Source: a virus
Direction: 5' to 3' (one strand)
Virus record (IMG/VR): IMGVR_UViG_3300038463_000049
Location: 1-22,736 of that record
DNA length: 22,736 nucleotides
Positions 4,361-16,861 of the stretch are shown here, piece after piece. Below the pieces are notes generated by a model. It was not told where the DNA came from and searched no databases. It saw only the letters and a list, made by a program, of their open reading frames with translations. A program made the translations under genes and the position numbers. The stretch's first letter is position 1, and every line of letters begins with the position of its first letter.

Positions 4361-7300
4361 ATGCCAAACGAAAAAGACTGGTCGGCCTCTACTCAATTAA
4401 ATGAGATGAAGAGGAATCCTCTCTTTAATCGTCTTCGCGCACAAAGTACAGTTGATACTGGTAGATACGGTAATCTCTCGCAAGACGTAAAAAACTATAC
4501 CCGAATGTCTGCTGGTAGAGAGCGGTTAAATAGTTTTAGTGCTAACAAAAAAGAATTATATTTACCTAGCGATAATATAGGTCCAGCAGTTAGTAGAAAT
4601 CAGCGTACTGGTGCATCCATGGGCACCAACTCCGAGTGGGCAATGCCTAAACTCCATGACCCATTTGAGTGGTTTAGAGAGAGATGTATTTTACCTGGAC
4701 AGTGGATGAGTTTGTTGGATGGTGCTAAAAAGGTTGAAGATGTAGTTTGTGGTGATAAAGCTTTGACACATATGGGTCGTTACCGTAGAGTTCTCGATAC
4801 AAAAACACAACAATATGACGGTAAGATTTATACAGTAACTCCTCAGTATAGATTTCCAGTTACTTTAACAGAGGGACATCCTTTTTGGACAAAAAGAAAT
4901 GATGTAATCGACTGGGTACATATTAATCATCTAAAGCGCGGAGATCTAGTTTTTGTTCCCGTGGATAATTCTATTGAAGACTATGAAGAAATATCTATAA
5001 TTGATTCTCTAAATGATGATGAATTTACTGTTAAAGATGGATATATTACACATCATAAATCTGGACAGTATAAGAATATTGGACGACCAATTAATAATCT
5101 TCCGATCTCAATCCCTGTTACGGAAGAATTGATGTGGCTCAGTGGTCTATATATTGCTGAGGGTTCATGCGGAAATCGTGATAAATCTCTTACCTTTTCT
5201 CTAAATAAAAATGAGACAGAATATGCAAATCAAATACTTGATTATGCAAAAAAAGTCTTCGATCTAGATGGGCATATCGATGATCGTTCACATATTGATA
5301 ATACAATCAATGTAATAATTACTAGTCAAGCATTAGTACAGTGGTTCAGAAATACATTTGGTTCTGGTGCATATAATAAGCATTTACCAGAATGGATGAT
5401 GCACCTTCCAGAGAATAAGCAGAAGGCACTTCTACGTGGTTACTTCGATGGAGATGGTTGTTACCAACCTGTCGAAAGTTCATTCTTCTCATCTTCAAAT
5501 GCTCTTACAGACCAACTTGTTCTTCTCTTAGAAAGAAATGGATTTTTCCCATCAATTTATAAACGTACAACTAAATCCTTCTCAAGTAATACAGAAGGCA
5601 AAAATGTAAATATTAATCGTTCTGATAACCCACGTTTTTTGCAGTGGCTTGGTGTTGATATTTTTGATAATGATCCAAAATTTATCGAAGAAAATATACG
5701 TCGTTTTCCAATTGAAAGAACGGATACAGGTTATTGGGTTCCTGTAAAATCAGTAGTTGAAGAAGATTATTCAGGGCCAATTTATAGTTTTACCATCACA
5801 GAAGACCATAGTTTTGTTGTCGAATCATTGGCGCAAAAAAATACATGGTGGTTCAACATGGAGGATCCCGACGAACAAACTCGAAAGATTCGTGACTGGG
5901 CAAGGTTAATTTACACCACTCACTATCTAGTTCCTTCAATGATCGATATCTATTCTCGATTCCCATTGCTGGGAATGGAATTTGCCCACCCTGATAAAAG
6001 AGTTAATGAATTTTTCTCAGAGTTGTTTTGGGATGGTTTACAGTATCAAGATTTTCTGTATTCATTAAGTCGTGAGCACTGGCTCATTGGTGATGTATTC
6101 GCACTTGGTTCATGGAATGATGGTATTGGTGCTTGGGAAGCTGATGAACTAATTAACCCCAATGATGTTGTTGTTGCCAAGAACAGAGCTCTGAGAACTT
6201 ATCAGTATCATATTAAAGTTCCAGAAGAAGTTAAAAAGTTAGTAGAGACTAGACAACCAGAAAAAGAATTTGCCATGCTTATGGCTATGTATCCTGACGT
6301 AGTAGAATACGCCAGAAAAGATGTTGAGATCCCTGTTTCAGATGTGATTATGAAGGGCATTCCCTATAAGTGTCTGGTAGCAGGAACTGATATGTTAACT
6401 CCAACTGGTCCACGTCCAGTTGAGGATCTTCAGATTGGTGATCCTGTTATAGCATGGGATATTACTGCAGACACTCCAGTTACTAGTTATGTAGAACATA
6501 ATTCTGTAAAAGAGGCTTCCCCCGTAGTAACAGTCACTACAAAGAAAGGCCGCACACTTACTTGTACTTTGGATCATCCTTTCTTAACACCAACCGGCAT
6601 GATAAATGCAATAGACTTATCACCAGGAGATAAAATACGTATAGGTACGTCTATTGATCTTAAGTCAAAAGAAGTGCCTGTAGATCTTGCTTATTTCTTG
6701 GGACTTATGGTAGGTGATGGATCTTATTATTCTCATTACTTTGAATTTCATAATGAAGAACAAGTCCTTATCGATTGGGTTGAAGAATTTGTTAAGCAAT
6801 ATGATTGTGTTCTACACAAGAAATTTAAGAGCAGTTTTGCTATCGTTAATGATGGAACTAATGGGAAAACCAAGTTTTCAACTGGATCGAATAACCTACG
6901 GAATCTTTTCCGTGACCTAGGTATATTTGGACAAAAATGTCAAGAGAAGAGAGTTCCCCAATTAATATGGGAAGGCTCAGAAGAGGCTAAATGGGCTTTT
7001 CTCTCTGGATATTTAGACTCTGATGGCTGTCTAGTTTCTCGTACTGACCAGAAATCACAGAAAACGTATAATGCTTATGATTGGGCAAGTTACAACCAGA
7101 AGTTGCTGGATGATACTCAGCTATTACTATCTGTTCTTGGTGTCCCAACCACCCGTAGTCCTCATCATATTAAAGTTGAATCTTATCAAGGTGTTGATAT
7201 TCTCCGGGAGAAGCTAACTCCATTGCTTCCTAGAAAACAACTAAAACAGATGTGGGACCAACAGGTTGTGTCTTCATCTGTTTTAGAGTGGGATACGATT

Positions 7301-9109
7301 AAAGAGATAAAAGTGGCTGGAGAGCAAGAAACTTATGCACTTTGTATCGCCGGGGCACACACACATGTTAGTGCTGGTTTAGTCACCAAAAATACCAACC
7401 CTTGGGCTGAACACGGTACTCCTCTTCTTATGAGGGCCTTCCGTCAGTTAATGATGGAAGAAAGTTTGCAAGCCAGTATGGAAGCAATCTCTGATAGATT
7501 GTATTCGCCACTTATTTTGGCAACACTAGGTTTACCTGATGCTGATGGAGATGGTCCTTGGATTCCTGATGCTGAGGAATTAGGTGCTTTGCGAGATGAC
7601 TTAGCAATGGCTATTAATGCTGACTTTAGATTAATGGTATATCATCACGGTCTAGAAATTCAGAATGCATTCGGTAGAGAATCTATGCCTCGATTGGATG
7701 ATGACTTCTACCGAATCCAGGCTAACTACATGATGGTTTTTGGTATTGGCTCTGAACTATTACAGGGTGGTAAGAGTGGTGCAACCTATGCTAGTGGTGC
7801 TCTTAACCGTGAACTAATTACACAGATGTTAACTACCCATCAACACCAAATTAAGCATTTTATCCAAGGTCGTATGCGAGCTGTTGCTGAACGTCAAGGA
7901 TTCTACGAATATCGTAATGTCGGTGGGCACCCAGTACCAATCATGGAAACTGTGTTAGTTGTTGATGAAGAAACTGGTGCTCAGTTCGTTGAAGAACGCC
8001 CAAAACTCGCTATCCCTGATATTATCTTCCAAAGTATGTCACTACAGGATGAAAATATTGAGCATCAATTCCTACAACAGTTAGCTGGTATGGGTCTTCC
8101 TGTTAGCTTTCAGACATTTACTCGAAATGCTGGTCTTGACTTTGAGGATGAAATAGAAACCGTTAAGAGAGAAAAGGTCGATCTAGTAATTGCAGAACAG
8201 CAAGTTAAGAAAGATATCTTTGATAGGTGCTTCCAATTACAACTACCTATTCCTATGGAATATCAAGCCGAGTATGAAGCGTACATTATGCAACTACAAG
8301 ATCCACAATTAGCTGAACAACTACGACCTGGTGCTATACAGGGTCTTGGTTCGCCTTCTCCTACTCCAAATATTGGTGGAACACCTGTTCATACTGATGT
8401 GAATGGTATTCCTAATATGTATCCATCTATTGCCAACCAAGAAACTCTAGATAGTTTGGGTACTCAAAAGAAGCATCCACCAGAATCTCATGAGCAAAAG
8501 AAGACACAACCGAAGCAATCTAAATCGGGTAAACCAAATGGTCCACAGAAGAAGACTGCCAGTATTGAAGATAATGAGATGGTAGTCACATCTAAAAAGA
8601 CTGGCGATGACATTATCATCGAAGAGGGTGCCATAGTATCTAATGTTGGTGAAGAAGGTGGAGAGTGGGGTAAGTATCGCAAGAGTAACCCCAAGCAGGC
8701 ATCAGTTACTGAAGAGTTTGATGGTGAACGAGAAATAACCTATGGAGATAGAATGAAGTTTTCTGTTCCATGGGAATCACAGTTTAGAACTCAAATGAAG
8801 TTAGCTAATGGTCAAAAAATCGTTGTTGATGATAATTACGAAAAATATGATGAAATTTATATGAAAGATCATATTGCAAAGATTTTAGAGTCTAACGTCG
8901 TTGGCCCAGAAGATAATGACTTCGATGACAAATTGAATGAAGACATCATCCCCACTAATATGGATTTCGATAAGCATAAGAGTGAAATGATGGGTTTTGA
9001 TAACAAAGCCATTACTGGAGTTAATACAGAGGATATGGGTCCTAAAGTTACATTCGGGTCACAAGAATTCCCAAATCGCAAAAAACCAGACGACACAAAA
9101 GATAAATAG
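4361..9109 (+). CDS. Portal protein precursor containing two inteins
   Basis: The 1582-aa precursor should mature to about 855 aa after excision of two inteins (residues 109-494 and 671-1011). Exteins are 1-108, 495-670 and 1012-1582. Portal identity rests on the joined extein: a PSMIDIYSRFPLLG segment and aromatic-rich region (about 525-590), then EHGTPLLMRAFRQLM, a helical stem-like region and FGIGSELLQGGKSGATYASG, followed by a long helical and charged C-terminal tail. It also rests on position just upstream of a prohead protease, scaffold-like and capsid genes. The portal forms the dodecameric DNA channel at one capsid vertex and docks the terminase and neck. Both junctions join without frame loss, giving ...WFRER+TWWFNM... 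and ...GIPYK+TNPWAEHG.... The start is leaderless behind a TATAAT. The last ~200 residues are polar and may be disordered. Confidence 0.88.
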   Translation: MPNEKDWSASTQLNEMKRNPLFNRLRAQSTVDTGRYGNLSQDVKNYTRMSAGRERLNSFSANKKELYLPSDNIGPAVSRNQRTGASMGTNSEWAMPKLHDPFEWFRERCILPGQWMSLLDGAKKVEDVVCGDKALTHMGRYRRVLDTKTQQYDGKIYTVTPQYRFPVTLTEGHPFWTKRNDVIDWVHINHLKRGDLVFVPVDNSIEDYEEISIIDSLNDDEFTVKDGYITHHKSGQYKNIGRPINNLPISIPVTEELMWLSGLYIAEGSCGNRDKSLTFSLNKNETEYANQILDYAKKVFDLDGHIDDRSHIDNTINVIITSQALVQWFRNTFGSGAYNKHLPEWMMHLPENKQKALLRGYFDGDGCYQPVESSFFSSSNALTDQLVLLLERNGFFPSIYKRTTKSFSSNTEGKNVNINRSDNPRFLQWLGVDIFDNDPKFIEENIRRFPIERTDTGYWVPVKSVVEEDYSGPIYSFTITEDHSFVVESLAQKNTWWFNMEDPDEQTRKIRDWARLIYTTHYLVPSMIDIYSRFPLLGMEFAHPDKRVNEFFSELFWDGLQYQDFLYSLSREHWLIGDVFALGSWNDGIGAWEADELINPNDVVVAKNRALRTYQYHIKVPEEVKKLVETRQPEKEFAMLMAMYPDVVEYARKDVEIPVSDVIMKGIPYKCLVAGTDMLTPTGPRPVEDLQIGDPVIAWDITADTPVTSYVEHNSVKEASPVVTVTTKKGRTLTCTLDHPFLTPTGMINAIDLSPGDKIRIGTSIDLKSKEVPVDLAYFLGLMVGDGSYYSHYFEFHNEEQVLIDWVEEFVKQYDCVLHKKFKSSFAIVNDGTNGKTKFSTGSNNLRNLFRDLGIFGQKCQEKRVPQLIWEGSEEAKWAFLSGYLDSDGCLVSRTDQKSQKTYNAYDWASYNQKLLDDTQLLLSVLGVPTTRSPHHIKVESYQGVDILREKLTPLLPRKQLKQMWDQQVVSSSVLEWDTIKEIKVAGEQETYALCIAGAHTHVSAGLVTKNTNPWAEHGTPLLMRAFRQLMMEESLQASMEAISDRLYSPLILATLGLPDADGDGPWIPDAEELGALRDDLAMAINADFRLMVYHHGLEIQNAFGRESMPRLDDDFYRIQANYMMVFGIGSELLQGGKSGATYASGALNRELITQMLTTHQHQIKHFIQGRMRAVAERQGFYEYRNVGGHPVPIMETVLVVDEETGAQFVEERPKLAIPDIIFQSMSLQDENIEHQFLQQLAGMGLPVSFQTFTRNAGLDFEDEIETVKREKVDLVIAEQQVKKDIFDRCFQLQLPIPMEYQAEYEAYIMQLQDPQLAEQLRPGAIQGLGSPSPTPNIGGTPVHTDVNGIPNMYPSIANQETLDSLGTQKKHPPESHEQKKTQPKQSKSGKPNGPQKKTASIEDNEMVVTSKKTGDDIIIEEGAIVSNVGEEGGEWGKYRKSNPKQASVTEEFDGEREITYGDRMKFSVPWESQFRTQMKLANGQKIVVDDNYEKYDEIYMKDHIAKILESNVVGPEDNDFDDKLNEDIIPTNMDFDKHKSEMMGFDNKAITGVNTEDMGPKVTFGSQEFPNRKKPDDTKDK
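4685..5842 (+). other. Intein 1 in portal, with LAGLIDADG endonuclease
   Basis: Precursor residues 109-494 (386 aa). The first residue is C109 (CILPGQWM), followed by a splicing block A-like segment with GDKALTH. TEGHPFW at 170-176 is block B with its TxxH. The endonuclease region shows two LAGLIDADG helices, LSGLYIAEG (260-268) and LLRGYFDGDG (357-366), each with an acidic residue, so cleavage activity is plausible. The C-terminal blocks read YSFTITEDHSFVVESLAQKN, ending at N494 with T495 as the +1 nucleophile. The penultimate residue is Lys rather than the common His. Boundaries are placed by motif and by restoration of a continuous portal sequence. Confidence 0.9.
6371..7393 (+). other. 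Intein 2 in portal, with LAGLIDADG endonuclease
   Basis: Precursor residues 671-1011 (341 aa). It starts at C671 with CLVAGTDMLTPTGPRPVEDL, a textbook block A. Block B is CTLDHPFLT (735-743). LAGLIDADG helices are FLGLMVGDGS (779-788) and FLSGYLDSDG (880-889), both with their acidic residues. The C-terminal blocks are ETYALCIAGAHTHVSAGLVTKN, ending at N1011 with T1012 as the +1 residue. As in intein 1, the penultimate residue is Lys. The two inteins differ in length and in endonuclease sequence, so they are not a simple recent duplication. Confidence 0.92.
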
Positions 9110-13125: not shown

Positions 13126-14115
13126 ATGCCATTCACTAAATCAGGCGCACGCGTTGCGGTAGGTTCAGATGATTATGTCGAGAAGATTCTAGGTGCTCAA
13201 GATCGCCTAGAGGAAACTACTGGTCGTAAGACCGCTTCTAAGGAAGCAAAGGAAGCTCGTCTAAGTCAGATCCTAGCCGACCGTTCAAACTACATGGTCC
13301 GTCTTGGCCAGGGTATGATTGGTCCTATCCAGTTGAAGCTTCGTTATCAGGGTCTAACCCGTAACGTTCTTCTGGAAGACCCACTTACACCTGGTGTCCC
13401 TGTCATGTACGATATTCTTGACGAATATGGTCAGGCCTATATCCTCAGTGGTTCTGAGGGAGAGGTTAAGGTAACACGATTCGAAGGTAAGAAAGTTCCC
13501 CTTCGGTTATATCGTATTGCCACCTTCCCTGAGATCAAAAAGGAAGACCTTTGGACCCTACGTGTCAACATTGTTGAGTATGCACAGGACATGTCCAAGC
13601 AGGCTATTATGATCCAAGAAGATGCCCGTACTATTACGGTTCTTCAGGCTGCTATCAATAACTACGCTGTTGACCCTAACCACACGGTTAGTCCTAACCA
13701 CATCGTTAATGAATTGAGTGGCTACGTTACGCCAGACTCATTGTTCGATGCTGTTGCATTGGTCGAGGTTCACCAGTTGGAGGCAAGTCGCTTGCTATTT
13801 AACCCAATTGACTACCGAGACCTCTACAAGTGGGACATCAACCAGACCGGTTGGGCCTTCAAGGACCGTGTTGTTGCTGGTGAGCGTATCGTTCAATTCG
13901 GTGGTTTCCAGGTTCAGCGTTCAATCGTTGTTCCTCAGGGTACCATCTATCTAACTCCATCTCCTGAGTTCCTTGGTGTAATGCCAGTTATGTACTCACT
14001 AGATGTGGAGGAGAACCACACTCCTGAGAAGTTCCTCAAGGGTTGGGTCATGGACGAATATATAAGCCAAGCGGTGTTGAACCCAAGAGGGCTCGCACAG
14101 ATCGTGAAATCGTAA
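13126..14115 (+). CDS. Major capsid protein
   Basis: This encodes 329 aa with a very strong purine ribosome-binding tract. Order and size fit an HK97-fold major capsid protein. An N-terminal helical, charged arm (about 1-55) is followed by a beta segment (QLKLRYQGLTRNVLLEDPLTPG) and an E-loop-like part with SGSEGEVKVTRFEGKKVPLRLY. A long helix with EYAQDMSKQAIMIQEDARTITVLQAAI and an A-domain end (VVPQGTIYLTPSPEFLGVMPVMYSLDV) complete it. It builds the icosahedral shell. Codons are visibly optimised compared with neighbours: about ten of a dozen Asn codons are AAC, Phe is mostly TTC and Lys mostly AAG, as expected for the most abundant protein. Its last residues, GLAQIVKS, are echoed in a relic 150 bases downstream. 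There is no cleavage-site evidence for the protease in the sequence itself. Confidence 0.85.
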   Translation: MPFTKSGARVAVGSDDYVEKILGAQDRLEETTGRKTASKEAKEARLSQILADRSNYMVRLGQGMIGPIQLKLRYQGLTRNVLLEDPLTPGVPVMYDILDEYGQAYILSGSEGEVKVTRFEGKKVPLRLYRIATFPEIKKEDLWTLRVNIVEYAQDMSKQAIMIQEDARTITVLQAAINNYAVDPNHTVSPNHIVNELSGYVTPDSLFDAVALVEVHQLEASRLLFNPIDYRDLYKWDINQTGWAFKDRVVAGERIVQFGGFQVQRSIVVPQGTIYLTPSPEFLGVMPVMYSLDVEENHTPEKFLKGWVMDEYISQAVLNPRGLAQIVKS

Positions 14116-14170: not shown

Positions 14171-14220
14171 AAAACAAGGACTGTTTTCAGGAGAAATCTT
14201 GAAAATGGTCCTTGTTTTTT
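14171..14220 (+). terminator. Strong rho-independent terminator after the capsid gene
   Basis: A 19-base arm at 14171-14189 pairs along its full length with 14200-14218 (17 Watson-Crick pairs and two G-T wobbles) around a ten-base loop, and ends in a run of six T (14215-14220). It separates head genes from the nuclease cassette. The A-rich 5' flank could let it work in both directions. Confidence 0.88.
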
Positions 14221-14240: not shown

Positions 14241-14285
14241 GTCAATACCGGGTTAGCCCAGATTGTGAAAATATCTTCATCCATT
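14241..14285 (+). pseudogene. Relic of a second capsid-gene 3' end
   Basis: Read in frame from 14241, the bases encode V-N-T-G-L-A-Q-I-V-K-I-S. This repeats the major capsid C-terminus N-P-R-G-L-A-Q-I-V-K-S encoded at 14080-14112. In the shared GLAQIVK block the nucleotides differ only at synonymous sites (CTC/TTA, GCA/GCC, ATC/ATT), so the copy came from a diverged homologous gene that had been under protein-level selection. It is bounded upstream by an in-frame TAA. It probably arrived with the nuclease cassette. Confidence 0.65.
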
Positions 14286-14316: not shown

Positions 14317-14345
14317 TTGACATGAAACCTCTGAGTTGATATACT
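14317..14345 (+). promoter_or_regulatory. Consensus sigma70-type promoter of the nuclease gene
   Basis: A perfect TTGACA (14317-14322), 17-base spacer, extended TG (14337-14338) and TATACT (14340-14345). Predicted start is near 14352, giving a leader of about 38 bases that contains an imperfect hairpin (CATCCAC... with ...GTGGTGATG, 14351-14373) and the AAAGGA ribosome-binding site. It shares the TGnTATACT element with the promoter at 2724-2752. Confidence 0.85.
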
Positions 14346-14389: not shown

Positions 14390-15406
14390 GTGTTAACCGA
14401 TGAGACGTTCATCAAGAACAACAAAAAGCATGTAGTAGGTTTTTGCGATAATTGTGGAAAAAGATTCGATAGAGAACTTAGTTACGCCAATAAGATGCAA
14501 TACTGCTCTACCACGTGTATGGGCAAAGGACGCACTAAAAATGCGCTTAAAGACTATACCTGTGAAAATTGTACTAAACCTTTTCAGAGGCCAGTTAGTT
14601 TTGGCAAAAATAGATTTTGTTCACAGGATTGTTCAATAGAGTTCCAGGCAAATAAAAATAGAAAATTAATTACTTGTGCTAATACTGATTGTAATAAAAA
14701 ACTAGTTACTACGAATAGTAAATATTGTTCTAAAAAATGTAAAAATTCACATACAACCAAAAAATTTGTAAATTTAAAGTTAGATTTGAAGACCAAATTT
14801 TTGAAAAAGCCTAAAGATTACTACAAGAAATACCTTGATGAAAAGGGCCGTTATACGAATTGTGTTATATGCGAAAAAACACTAGATAAACCCTATGCCC
14901 AGAAACTCTTTTGTGACCGTAGGTGTAGAACTGTTGGTGGAGAATTAGGGATCAGATATACCCCAATTTTTATTGACAAAGAATGCTTAAGTTGTGGTAA
15001 GACATTCCAAGAAAGAATTGGAGAGACTAAATCCCACCAAAAGAAATATTGTACACATGATTGTTACTTGAAGGTTAACAAAAAAGCTGGAAAAAGATAT
15101 GTATCTTTGTTGGGTGAAGAAGCTGTTGTTTATCATTCTGGTTGGGAATTAAGATTTGCGGCAACATGTCTGCGCTTTGATATACCATGTCGTAGGTATG
15201 ATGGTGATCCTATTTCTACAACTGTTGGAGATTATTATCCAGATTTTATTGCTGGCGAAAATGATGATATCATTGAAATTAAAGGGTATTTAGACAAAAA
15301 GGCAGAAATAAAGATTAACACTGCTCATCAAATTTTTGGTGATCGTTATAAAATTCTATTAGAAGAAGATCTTAAAAGGTTTGAAGAAACAGGAGAATTA
15401 GTATGA
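14390..15406 (+). CDS. Five-zinc-finger PD-(D/E)XK nuclease, probable free-standing homing endonuclease
   Basis: This encodes 338 aa from a GTG with AAAGGA five bases upstream (14379-14384); there is no closer ATG. Five tandem C-x2-4-C...C-x3-C fingers are visible: C19/C22/C39/C43, C58/C61/C77/C81, C96/C101/C113/C117, C158/C161/C175/C179 and C199/C202/C221/C225. Most read YCS or FCS before the third ligand pair. The C-terminal ~95 residues are a nuclease: YHSGWELRFA (E253), YYPDF (D285) and EIKGY (E296, K298) give the D...ExK core found in VSR-like and phage homing nucleases. The finger array would supply DNA-site recognition. Low GC (about 23% in one 60-base sample within the finger region) contrasts with the capsid gene upstream. 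It overlaps the next gene by four bases (ATGA). Homing function is inferred from architecture, own promoter and the capsid-end relic beside it. Confidence 0.8.
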   Translation: MLTDETFIKNNKKHVVGFCDNCGKRFDRELSYANKMQYCSTTCMGKGRTKNALKDYTCENCTKPFQRPVSFGKNRFCSQDCSIEFQANKNRKLITCANTDCNKKLVTTNSKYCSKKCKNSHTTKKFVNLKLDLKTKFLKKPKDYYKKYLDEKGRYTNCVICEKTLDKPYAQKLFCDRRCRTVGGELGIRYTPIFIDKECLSCGKTFQERIGETKSHQKKYCTHDCYLKVNKKAGKRYVSLLGEEAVVYHSGWELRFAATCLRFDIPCRRYDGDPISTTVGDYYPDFIAGENDDIIEIKGYLDKKAEIKINTAHQIFGDRYKILLEEDLKRFEETGELV

Positions 15407-15948
15407 GTAAGAGTAAAAAAATGGATACATTAGAACATCTTATTAAGTACGGACTTATTACAGTTCCTACTAATTGTGAACTTTGTTTTGGGACAGGAAG
15501 TTTGTACCCAACTAGTTATTCACTACAAGTTTGTCCTAATGGGTGTAATAGTTTATCTAAAGAATTCCCTAAAACAGTAAATTATGGAGGAGATACCCAT
15601 CCTCAAGTACTTGTACGTCATGGTGTTTTGATGGATATTTTTGACATGAAAAAACCTTGGAAGATTGCTGAAACCTTTGATTTTGCCAGAGTAGCTTGGG
15701 TAGATGCTGGAGTTGCTAATATTATTAATTTACTTTGGAGATCTAAAATAGACACCTGGGTATCTTGTCAGGGTGGTTCTTATGGAGGAGAAGAAGAAGC
15801 TGCCTATGTAGGCTTATGCTTAGTCGATGACAAAAAAATTGATCTTGCTAGAGATATTATCTCCAAATATGGGATTATCACGAGTGAAGAAGATGACAGA
15901 GATAATGAATTTTCTTCTGATTATGTCTTCAGATGGTTATGGAAATAA
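15403..15948 (+). CDS. SCQG-motif phage protein with N-terminal zinc site
   Basis: This encodes 181 aa; the ATG overlaps the nuclease stop (ATGA) and has CAGGAGA upstream. The N-terminus has CELC...CPNGC (C25, C28, C44, C48), a likely zinc ribbon. The second half carries VDAGVANIINLLWRSKIDTWVSCQGG followed by YVGLCLVDD and a helix (LARDIISKYG). This resembles a small domain common in actinophage proteins, in which a helix with an Asp-Ala/Pro-Gly start precedes an SCQG or SCEG turn; that family has no known function to my knowledge. Coupling to the nuclease suggests it may travel or work with it, which is inference. Confidence 0.65.
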   Translation: MSKSKKMDTLEHLIKYGLITVPTNCELCFGTGSLYPTSYSLQVCPNGCNSLSKEFPKTVNYGGDTHPQVLVRHGVLMDIFDMKKPWKIAETFDFARVAWVDAGVANIINLLWRSKIDTWVSCQGGSYGGEEEAAYVGLCLVDDKKIDLARDIISKYGIITSEEDDRDNEFSSDYVFRWLWK

Positions 15949-16252: not shown

Positions 16253-16861
16253 ATGGCTACAGTTAGTCGCAACGATGATGGCAAATCAAAACCGCTTCCG
16301 GTAAAAGACGTAGAAGGCGAGTTTGTTCCACATAAAGCCTCTCGTGAAGATTTATCTTATAAAAATGCTCCAGTATCAGCTGGTATTAGACGACTCAAGG
16401 CACATCAGGTTACTAATTGGATAGAGAATCTATCTGGTAATGTTTCTAACTGGGCCAATGGCACAGATAGTAATGCGCTCAAGTTTCGTTTAGAGCCTAA
16501 TGGTTTTTATGGTTCAGTAATTAACATTCCTGATGAAATTAAAAATCATCCCTTTGTTCAAAGGGCATCTGTTCGTGGTTTGATTAGATTCTTAACCGAA
16601 GAACAGGCACTTGATCGAGCCGACGAACTTATTGATGCTCCAGACCAAGCTGATGAATCTGTTCAGGAAATGTTAAAAGCTCTTGCTCCTGGTGCTGCTC
16701 GTAATATGACTACAAACTTTAAAGAAGGCGTCCCAGATGACGCTGAACAAGTTGGTAAAGCAATGACAGCAGACGCAATTTGGGCGAATGCTAAGAATCC
16801 AGCTCTAAGAGTTGCACTTGATAAGCAGATTCCAATTGAGATTGATGCAGATAGTCTGTAA
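16253..16861 (+). CDS. Hypothetical phage protein, predicted mostly soluble alpha/beta
   Basis: This encodes 202 aa from an ATG preceded only by an A/G-rich tract (AAGAGAATAAAA). The N-terminal ~40 residues are charged and probably flexible; residues about 45-115 look folded (HQVTNWIENLSGNVSNW, FRLEPNGFYGSVINIP). The rest is helical and acidic, ending EIDADSL. There is no membrane segment, zinc site or enzymatic motif. Position after the capsid region fits a head-completion or neck protein, but I cannot identify it. Confidence 0.7.
   Translation: MATVSRNDDGKSKPLPVKDVEGEFVPHKASREDLSYKNAPVSAGIRRLKAHQVTNWIENLSGNVSNWANGTDSNALKFRLEPNGFYGSVINIPDEIKNHPFVQRASVRGLIRFLTEEQALDRADELIDAPDQADESVQEMLKALAPGAARNMTTNFKEGVPDDAEQVGKAMTADAIWANAKNPALRVALDKQIPIEIDADSL

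Follow-up and report, generated by a model that had tools for sequence, protein, structure and literature searches.

A zinc-finger PD-(D/E)XK nuclease gene at the recoded end of a phage capsid gene: a candidate natural home-and-rescue element

We analysed a virus record of 22,736 nucleotides (22.7 kb), termed the window in the following, in which the gene of the major capsid protein (MCP) is followed by a gene for a zinc-finger nuclease. The main point, absent from the preliminary description of this DNA, is that the nuclease cassette is embedded in the terminal part of the capsid gene, for which it brings along a recoded replacement. From the sequence comparisons described below we consider it highly probable that the nuclease is a homing endonuclease that cuts the 3' end of naive MCP genes, becomes integrated at this place and restores the gene by means of a recoded tail resistant to cutting. 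In a mixed infection the finger array would read roughly the last 30-45 bp of the naive capsid gene, and the PD-(D/E)XK domain would cut it 5-8 codons ahead of the stop. With the carrier genome as repair template, the recoded capsid tail, the terminator and the nuclease gene would then be copied in, such that interruption and reconstruction of the capsid gene would coincide. Recoding would leave the protein unchanged while abolishing the site match, which would prevent re-cutting. The original tail would stay behind as a displaced scrap.

The nuclease gene is a single intact open reading frame with a GTG start (Table 1), and two further IMG/VR contigs carry identical copies of it. It begins 274 bases past the MCP stop, with a terminator and a promoter in between; the latter agrees with the consensus promoter that had been attributed to the gene beforehand. 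The five Cys4 fingers of the preliminary description were likewise recovered. They follow the cysteine pattern C-x2-4-C...C-x2-4-C, which is treble-clef/YacG-like, with a weak match to YacG itself. Because the pattern is conserved across a family whose members carry 2 to 5 fingers, it does not arise by chance. AlphaFold2 modelled the finger part with moderate pLDDT values of 56-82, a range that is not confident, such that the fingers are assigned by their sequence pattern as putative zinc binders. An array of this length is not peculiar to the present phage: most of the Bixzunavirus alleles read have five fingers, too. The 181-aa frame that overlaps the nuclease stop is possibly a passenger of the same insertion; neither L041 nor L042, two close relatives, has a counterpart of it after the MCP gene.

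Table 1. Features at the capsid-nuclease locus of the window
Feature	Position	Strand	Details
Major capsid protein (MCP) gene, host and presumed target of the cassette	13126..14115	+	PHROG_2522 major head protein, E 1e-102
Recoded MCP tail, comprising the final 11 codons and the stop	14080..14115	+	no other 10-codon window of the MCP gene is as rare
Intrinsic terminator, MCP-nuclease intergenic region	14172..14217	+	20-pair stem plus T run
Probable displaced MCP tail copy	14250..14270	+	GGGTTAGCCCAGATTGTGAAA = GLAQIVK, synonymous with the MCP end; 7/7 residues
Sigma-70-like promoter of the nuclease gene	14317..14345	+	TTGACA-N17-TATACT, 11/12, extended -10 TG
Zinc-finger/PD-(D/E)XK endonuclease gene	14390..15406	+	338 aa; PHROG_1271, E 1e-28
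Putative finger 1 (C19-C43)	14444..14518	+	Cys4 pattern
Putative finger 2 (C58-C81)	14561..14632	+	Cys4 pattern
Putative finger 3 (C96-C117)	14675..14740	+	Cys4 pattern
Putative finger 4 (C158-C179)	14861..14926	+	C161, C175 invariant among aligned relatives (A2)
Putative finger 5 (C199-C225)	14984..15064	+	present in all family members
PD-(D/E)XK nuclease core, residues 245-338	15122..15403	+	E253, D285, E296, K298
ORF, 181 aa, start overlaps nuclease stop (ATGA)	15403..15948	+	weak phrog_6638 match
Native next gene, insertion flank	16253..16861	+	homologues directly follow MCP in nuclease-free relatives (L107, L066, L111)

The C-terminal core contains the motifs S-x-W-E253-x-R, PD285F and E296-I-K298-G, which are kept in distant relatives. 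In profile alignments with 11-12 relatives, P284, D285 and K298 are invariant, position 296 is E or D, and E253 is conserved as well. Since the whole protein gave only weak Foldseek matches, the C-terminal domain was modelled separately. The AlphaFold2 model, which could have lacked the PD-(D/E)XK core claimed for this protein, contained it as a helix, strands, a helix and a strand with a pLDDT of about 85-94. Almost all of its best structural matches belong to this superfamily, namely VRR-Nuc (Z 7.5), TnsA (6.5, rmsd 2.2 over 84 residues), I-Bth0305I (6.2), Vsr (6.2) and Hjc (5.9) as well as Bax1 and FAN1. The top matches had Z values of 5-7.9, where values below 8 count as moderate; together with the conserved motif these moderate fold scores make the predicted PD-(D/E)XK assignment sound.

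The database labels of the family point elsewhere. PHROG_1271, which aligns over fingers and core, is labelled "HNH endonuclease", as are GenBank records. No Pfam HNH model matched the window protein or its relatives at E<=1, and with a PD-(D/E)XK core in place this label can be ruled out. The label Holliday junction resolvase, also found in GenBank, fits poorly; the likeness to Hjc is one of fold only.

Relatives of the nuclease were found by tblastn in 139-141 phage records, nearly all of them from Mycobacterium cluster C (Bixzunavirus); those outside this cluster were ScoobyDoobyDoo (Myrnavirus) and the Gordonia phage RedWattleHog. Profile scans added 18 loci in IMG/VR, and such a scan of 84,980 bacterial and archaeal genomes returned no cellular relative. 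In every locus read (about 30, from at least four phage lineages) the nuclease gene is located directly 3' of the MCP gene. The window MCP itself is about 60% identical to the MCPs of Rhodococcus phage E3 and of Mycobacterium cluster C. The same capsid gene followed by another gene, with the nuclease missing, is seen in Stormageddon, E3, Myrna, Phabba, ValleyTerrace and Skog and in about 40 lake-phage contigs. Presence or absence of the nuclease at this one site distinguishes RedWattleHog from Stormageddon, L057 from L107 and ScoobyDoobyDoo from Myrna.

This distribution bears on whether the protein is a resident housekeeping enzyme, i.e. a Holliday junction resolvase or packaging nuclease that merely happens to be placed in the head operon. 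Hjc-type folds among the structural matches and the resolvase labels would agree with such an origin, but close relatives live without the gene, and its alleles are only 50-98% identical within one genus. Relic deletions, transfer across genera and the fact that synonymous recoding of the adjacent gene end strictly accompanies the nuclease (see below) also argue against it. We therefore regard a resident enzyme as extremely improbable; by distribution, motif and fold a housekeeping resolvase, a packaging nuclease and an HNH enzyme all drop out. The homologues flank a conserved gene, as had been anticipated for a mobile enzyme rather than a housekeeping protein. The fixed MCP 3' site, the patchy presence and the recoding point to a role in site-specific homing at this gene.

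In phages that carry the nuclease, the last 8-15 or so MCP codons are respelled compared to nuclease-free relatives, and in near-isogenic pairs all changes are synonymous. RedWattleHog and Stormageddon differ in 7/15 tail codons but only in 1/285 codons upstream (p=1e-9). For L057 and L107 the respective counts are 12/15 and 0/285 (p=5e-19), and for L112 and L094 13/15 and 53/281 (p=9e-8). The excess was weak for ScoobyDoobyDoo (p=0.008 and 0.05) and, taken alone, not significant for the L072 group (p=0.13). Among 691 testable nuclease-free pairs none showed a tail excess at p<1e-3, and the ratio of tail to body divergence was 1.02 over 880 nuclease-free pairs, where pairs are not independent observations. 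These controls rule out that high synonymous divergence is a general property of the gene end. Some synonymous excess (7/25 last capsid codons) was seen between Myrna (L009) and Phabba (L010), both nuclease-free, and is perhaps the scar of an old invasion.

The respelled tails also have a characteristic codon usage. For most carriers, no other ten-codon stretch of the MCP gene is made up of codons as rare as the final ten (percentile 0.0), whereas 40 nuclease-free lake phages have tails of ordinary codon rarity (median percentile 0.65). The window tail, CCA AGA GGG CTC GCA CAG ATC GTG AAA TCG TAA, is at percentile 0.0 as well. Synonymous changes between the window and the relic phage L042 amount to 10/12 in the tail versus 17/97 upstream (p=1e-5), and to 7/12 versus 12/97 with respect to L041, which carries a different nuclease (p=9e-4). 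As every close relative with readable flanks is either invaded or a relic, the window's clade offers no naive allele for comparison; when this clade was searched by pattern for a naive tail, the contigs obtained were all either already known, invaded, relics or truncated.

The original capsid ends can still be found next to the nuclease genes. The nuclease frame of RedWattleHog ends with ...ATCATCCTGCGCAAGTCCTAG followed by TCGACTCG, which equals the Stormageddon MCP end and its flank base for base. The cassette has thus entered the capsid gene six codons ahead of its stop, and the displaced capsid tail supplies the nuclease with its own C-terminus and stop. In L057 and L056, KIVKA-stop and the native flank lie just behind the nuclease gene, and in Tonenili a displaced GIVILRKA-stop is found downstream. 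For the window, the stretch encoding GLAQIVK (Table 1) is probably such a displaced copy: its protein score was 32 compared to a maximum of 26 among shuffles (0/60), while its DNA score was equalled by 1/500 shuffles. It precedes the nuclease gene, in contrast to the downstream tails of RedWattleHog, L057 and Tonenili, such that the history of the window insertion was not simple; one possibility is stepwise invasion and repair. L072 probably has the same upstream arrangement as the window.

The main alternative is ordinary intronless homing, which could in principle produce a divergent gene end, if co-conversion imported the ordinary capsid tail of a divergent donor. Flank conversion is described as the normal outcome of phage homing in PMC2988022. 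RedWattleHog itself provides an example with gp18 (L005 5634-6071), an HNH gene located between nrdB (ribonucleotide reductase beta) and RNA ligase that is absent from Stormageddon. There, divergence affects both flanks and extends to amino-acid changes, and a displaced copy is absent. The contrast between these conventional homing marks and the capsid locus supports a rescue tail over plain co-conversion. Furthermore, the tails of carriers are made up of the gene's rarest codons, whereas nuclease-free tails are typical. The carrier tails have diverged by about 0.6, beyond the mean of about 0.375 for the most distant nuclease-free relatives. Near-isogenic tails differ only synonymously, and the displaced originals persist. 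Co-conversion of an ordinary tail appears quite improbable on these grounds.

Alternatively, the nuclease may primarily be a weapon that destroys the capsid gene of coinfecting rivals, with the recoded tail as self-immunity and homing as a secondary effect. The capsid gene is essential, its tail is the presumed target and recoded tails resemble an immunity; competition between phages would leave identical marks in the sequence. The displaced native tails, on the other hand, show that the cassette inserted into naive genes, i.e. homing. We judge a primarily weapon-like role to be unlikely, noting that weapon and homing roles are not mutually exclusive.

Homing followed by rescue agrees with what is seen in phages that have apparently lost the nuclease. 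Tonenili, with 47 residues left, L042 and ValleyTerrace appear to be relics of deletions in which the recoded tail was retained. L042 contains the final codons of a nuclease behind a terminator. Both L042 and ValleyTerrace retain terminal codons of the lost nuclease and do not represent naive empty sites. In L042 the slot after the capsid gene is occupied by a HicA-toxin-like frame (5155-5604; Pfam E 0.003, below the curated cut-off).

The cassette also travels. ScoobyDoobyDoo (Myrnavirus) and Lukilu (Bixzunavirus) have both finger array and tail in common, and so do L024 and Salacia, which indicates that the cassette moved as a unit between lineages. Within the cassette the predicted DNA-binding part is far more variable than the nuclease: most pairs of cluster C alleles share 36-67% identity in the finger DNA, compared to mostly 88-100% in the C-terminal part. 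The fingers of Sebata form a mosaic, with finger 1 of the ScoobyDoobyDoo type, fingers 2 and 3 of the Cactojaque type and finger 4 of the Yucca type. This mosaic reflects natural shuffling of the presumed DNA-reading array. In L041 (5059-6099) the same nuclease core is preceded by an HTH-like N-terminus and three Cys4 fingers, which would correspond to a replacement of the predicted DNA-binding part.

The array had been proposed to be a modular DNA-site reader. Indirect backing for this comes from the variable finger number, the shuffling and the HTH swap. A correlation of finger type with capsid-tail type was overall not significant (Mantel r=0.19, p=0.058; partial p=0.17, with body distances inflated where MCP lengths differ), such that the specificity of the array is something we infer. 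Tentatively, and with somewhat less than even confidence, we suggest that phages exchange finger modules and recombine them on a constant PD-(D/E)XK engine, thereby re-aiming it at variants of the capsid site, and that each version travels with its own recoded rescue tail. The family would then constitute a natural zinc-finger nuclease system and, in effect, a natural, re-targetable home-and-rescue drive.

The closest parallel that we found are the gene hybrids created by mobile ORFs in fungal mitochondria, in atp6 of Allomyces and in atp6, atp9, cox2 and nad3 of Glomus (PMC3630166). There, the inserted endonuclease brings a foreign, largely synonymous C-terminal part, and the native copy is kept downstream (PMC3630166). 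The phage element shares the element-borne synonymous tail swap, here confined to the last MCP codons, and the displaced native tail, found in RedWattleHog, L056, L057 and Tonenili and probable in the window and L072. It differs in using a Cys4-finger PD-(D/E)XK enzyme in phages instead of LAGLIDADG or GIY-YIG enzymes in mitochondria, in always occupying one capsid site, in its tail of about 10-15 rare codons and in its occurrence in several lineages. By analogy, the phage nuclease would work like the fungal hybrids while standing outside their family, with another enzyme class and another host.

Like the free-standing phage homing endonucleases (T4 Seg, Mob and Hef; ICP1), the element adjoins an essential gene, is patchily distributed, converts its flank and leaves relics. 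The available parts of PMC2988022 and PMC10448857 describe phage homing endonucleases as inserting between genes, as lying near essential genes or as splitting them, with co-conversion of the flanks, and contain no recoded rescue tail. A phage precedent for such a tail was not found in the open-access literature. The nuclease class also differs from that of the T4 and ICP1 enzymes. It is shared at the superfamily level with I-Ssp6803I and I-Bth0305I (PD-(D/E)XK and EDxHD homing endonucleases), the catalytic domain of the latter being among the structural matches given above. Both of these are intron-associated homing endonucleases; the window nuclease, unlike them, is free-standing and equipped with a zinc-finger array.

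In its logic the proposed mechanism resembles HomeR, a home-and-rescue drive that cuts an essential gene, inserts and rescues it by a recoded, cut-resistant end (PMC7968924). HomeR is a synthetic Cas9 system for insects, while the phage element is natural with putative protein-based recognition; the likeness is one of analogy, with no homology. If our reading is right, a selfish element resides within the coding end of the most essential structural gene of the phage and is harmless through carrying a recoded copy of that end. A logic invented for synthetic drives would then appear to have evolved naturally and to have spread in several actinophage lineages.

RedWattleHog/Stormageddon and L057/L107 provide natural near-isogenic pairs for a direct test. 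The finger arrays with their matching, presumably resistant sites form a natural series from which a recognition code of Cys4 fingers could be learned, and respelled tails are a simple computational signature for similar elements elsewhere. The cassette family also accounts for the fact that well over a hundred genomes carry misleading HNH and resolvase labels.

Two further observations concern other parts of the window. At its left edge (2-2239) a protein starts with DnaJ-like CxxCxGxG zinc repeats (E 1e-4, below the cut-off). The portal gene (4361-9109) contains two intein-like insertions with LAGLIDADG and Hint/intein-splicing domains; together with the nuclease, the head-gene cluster of this phage thus harbours three mobile endonuclease elements.
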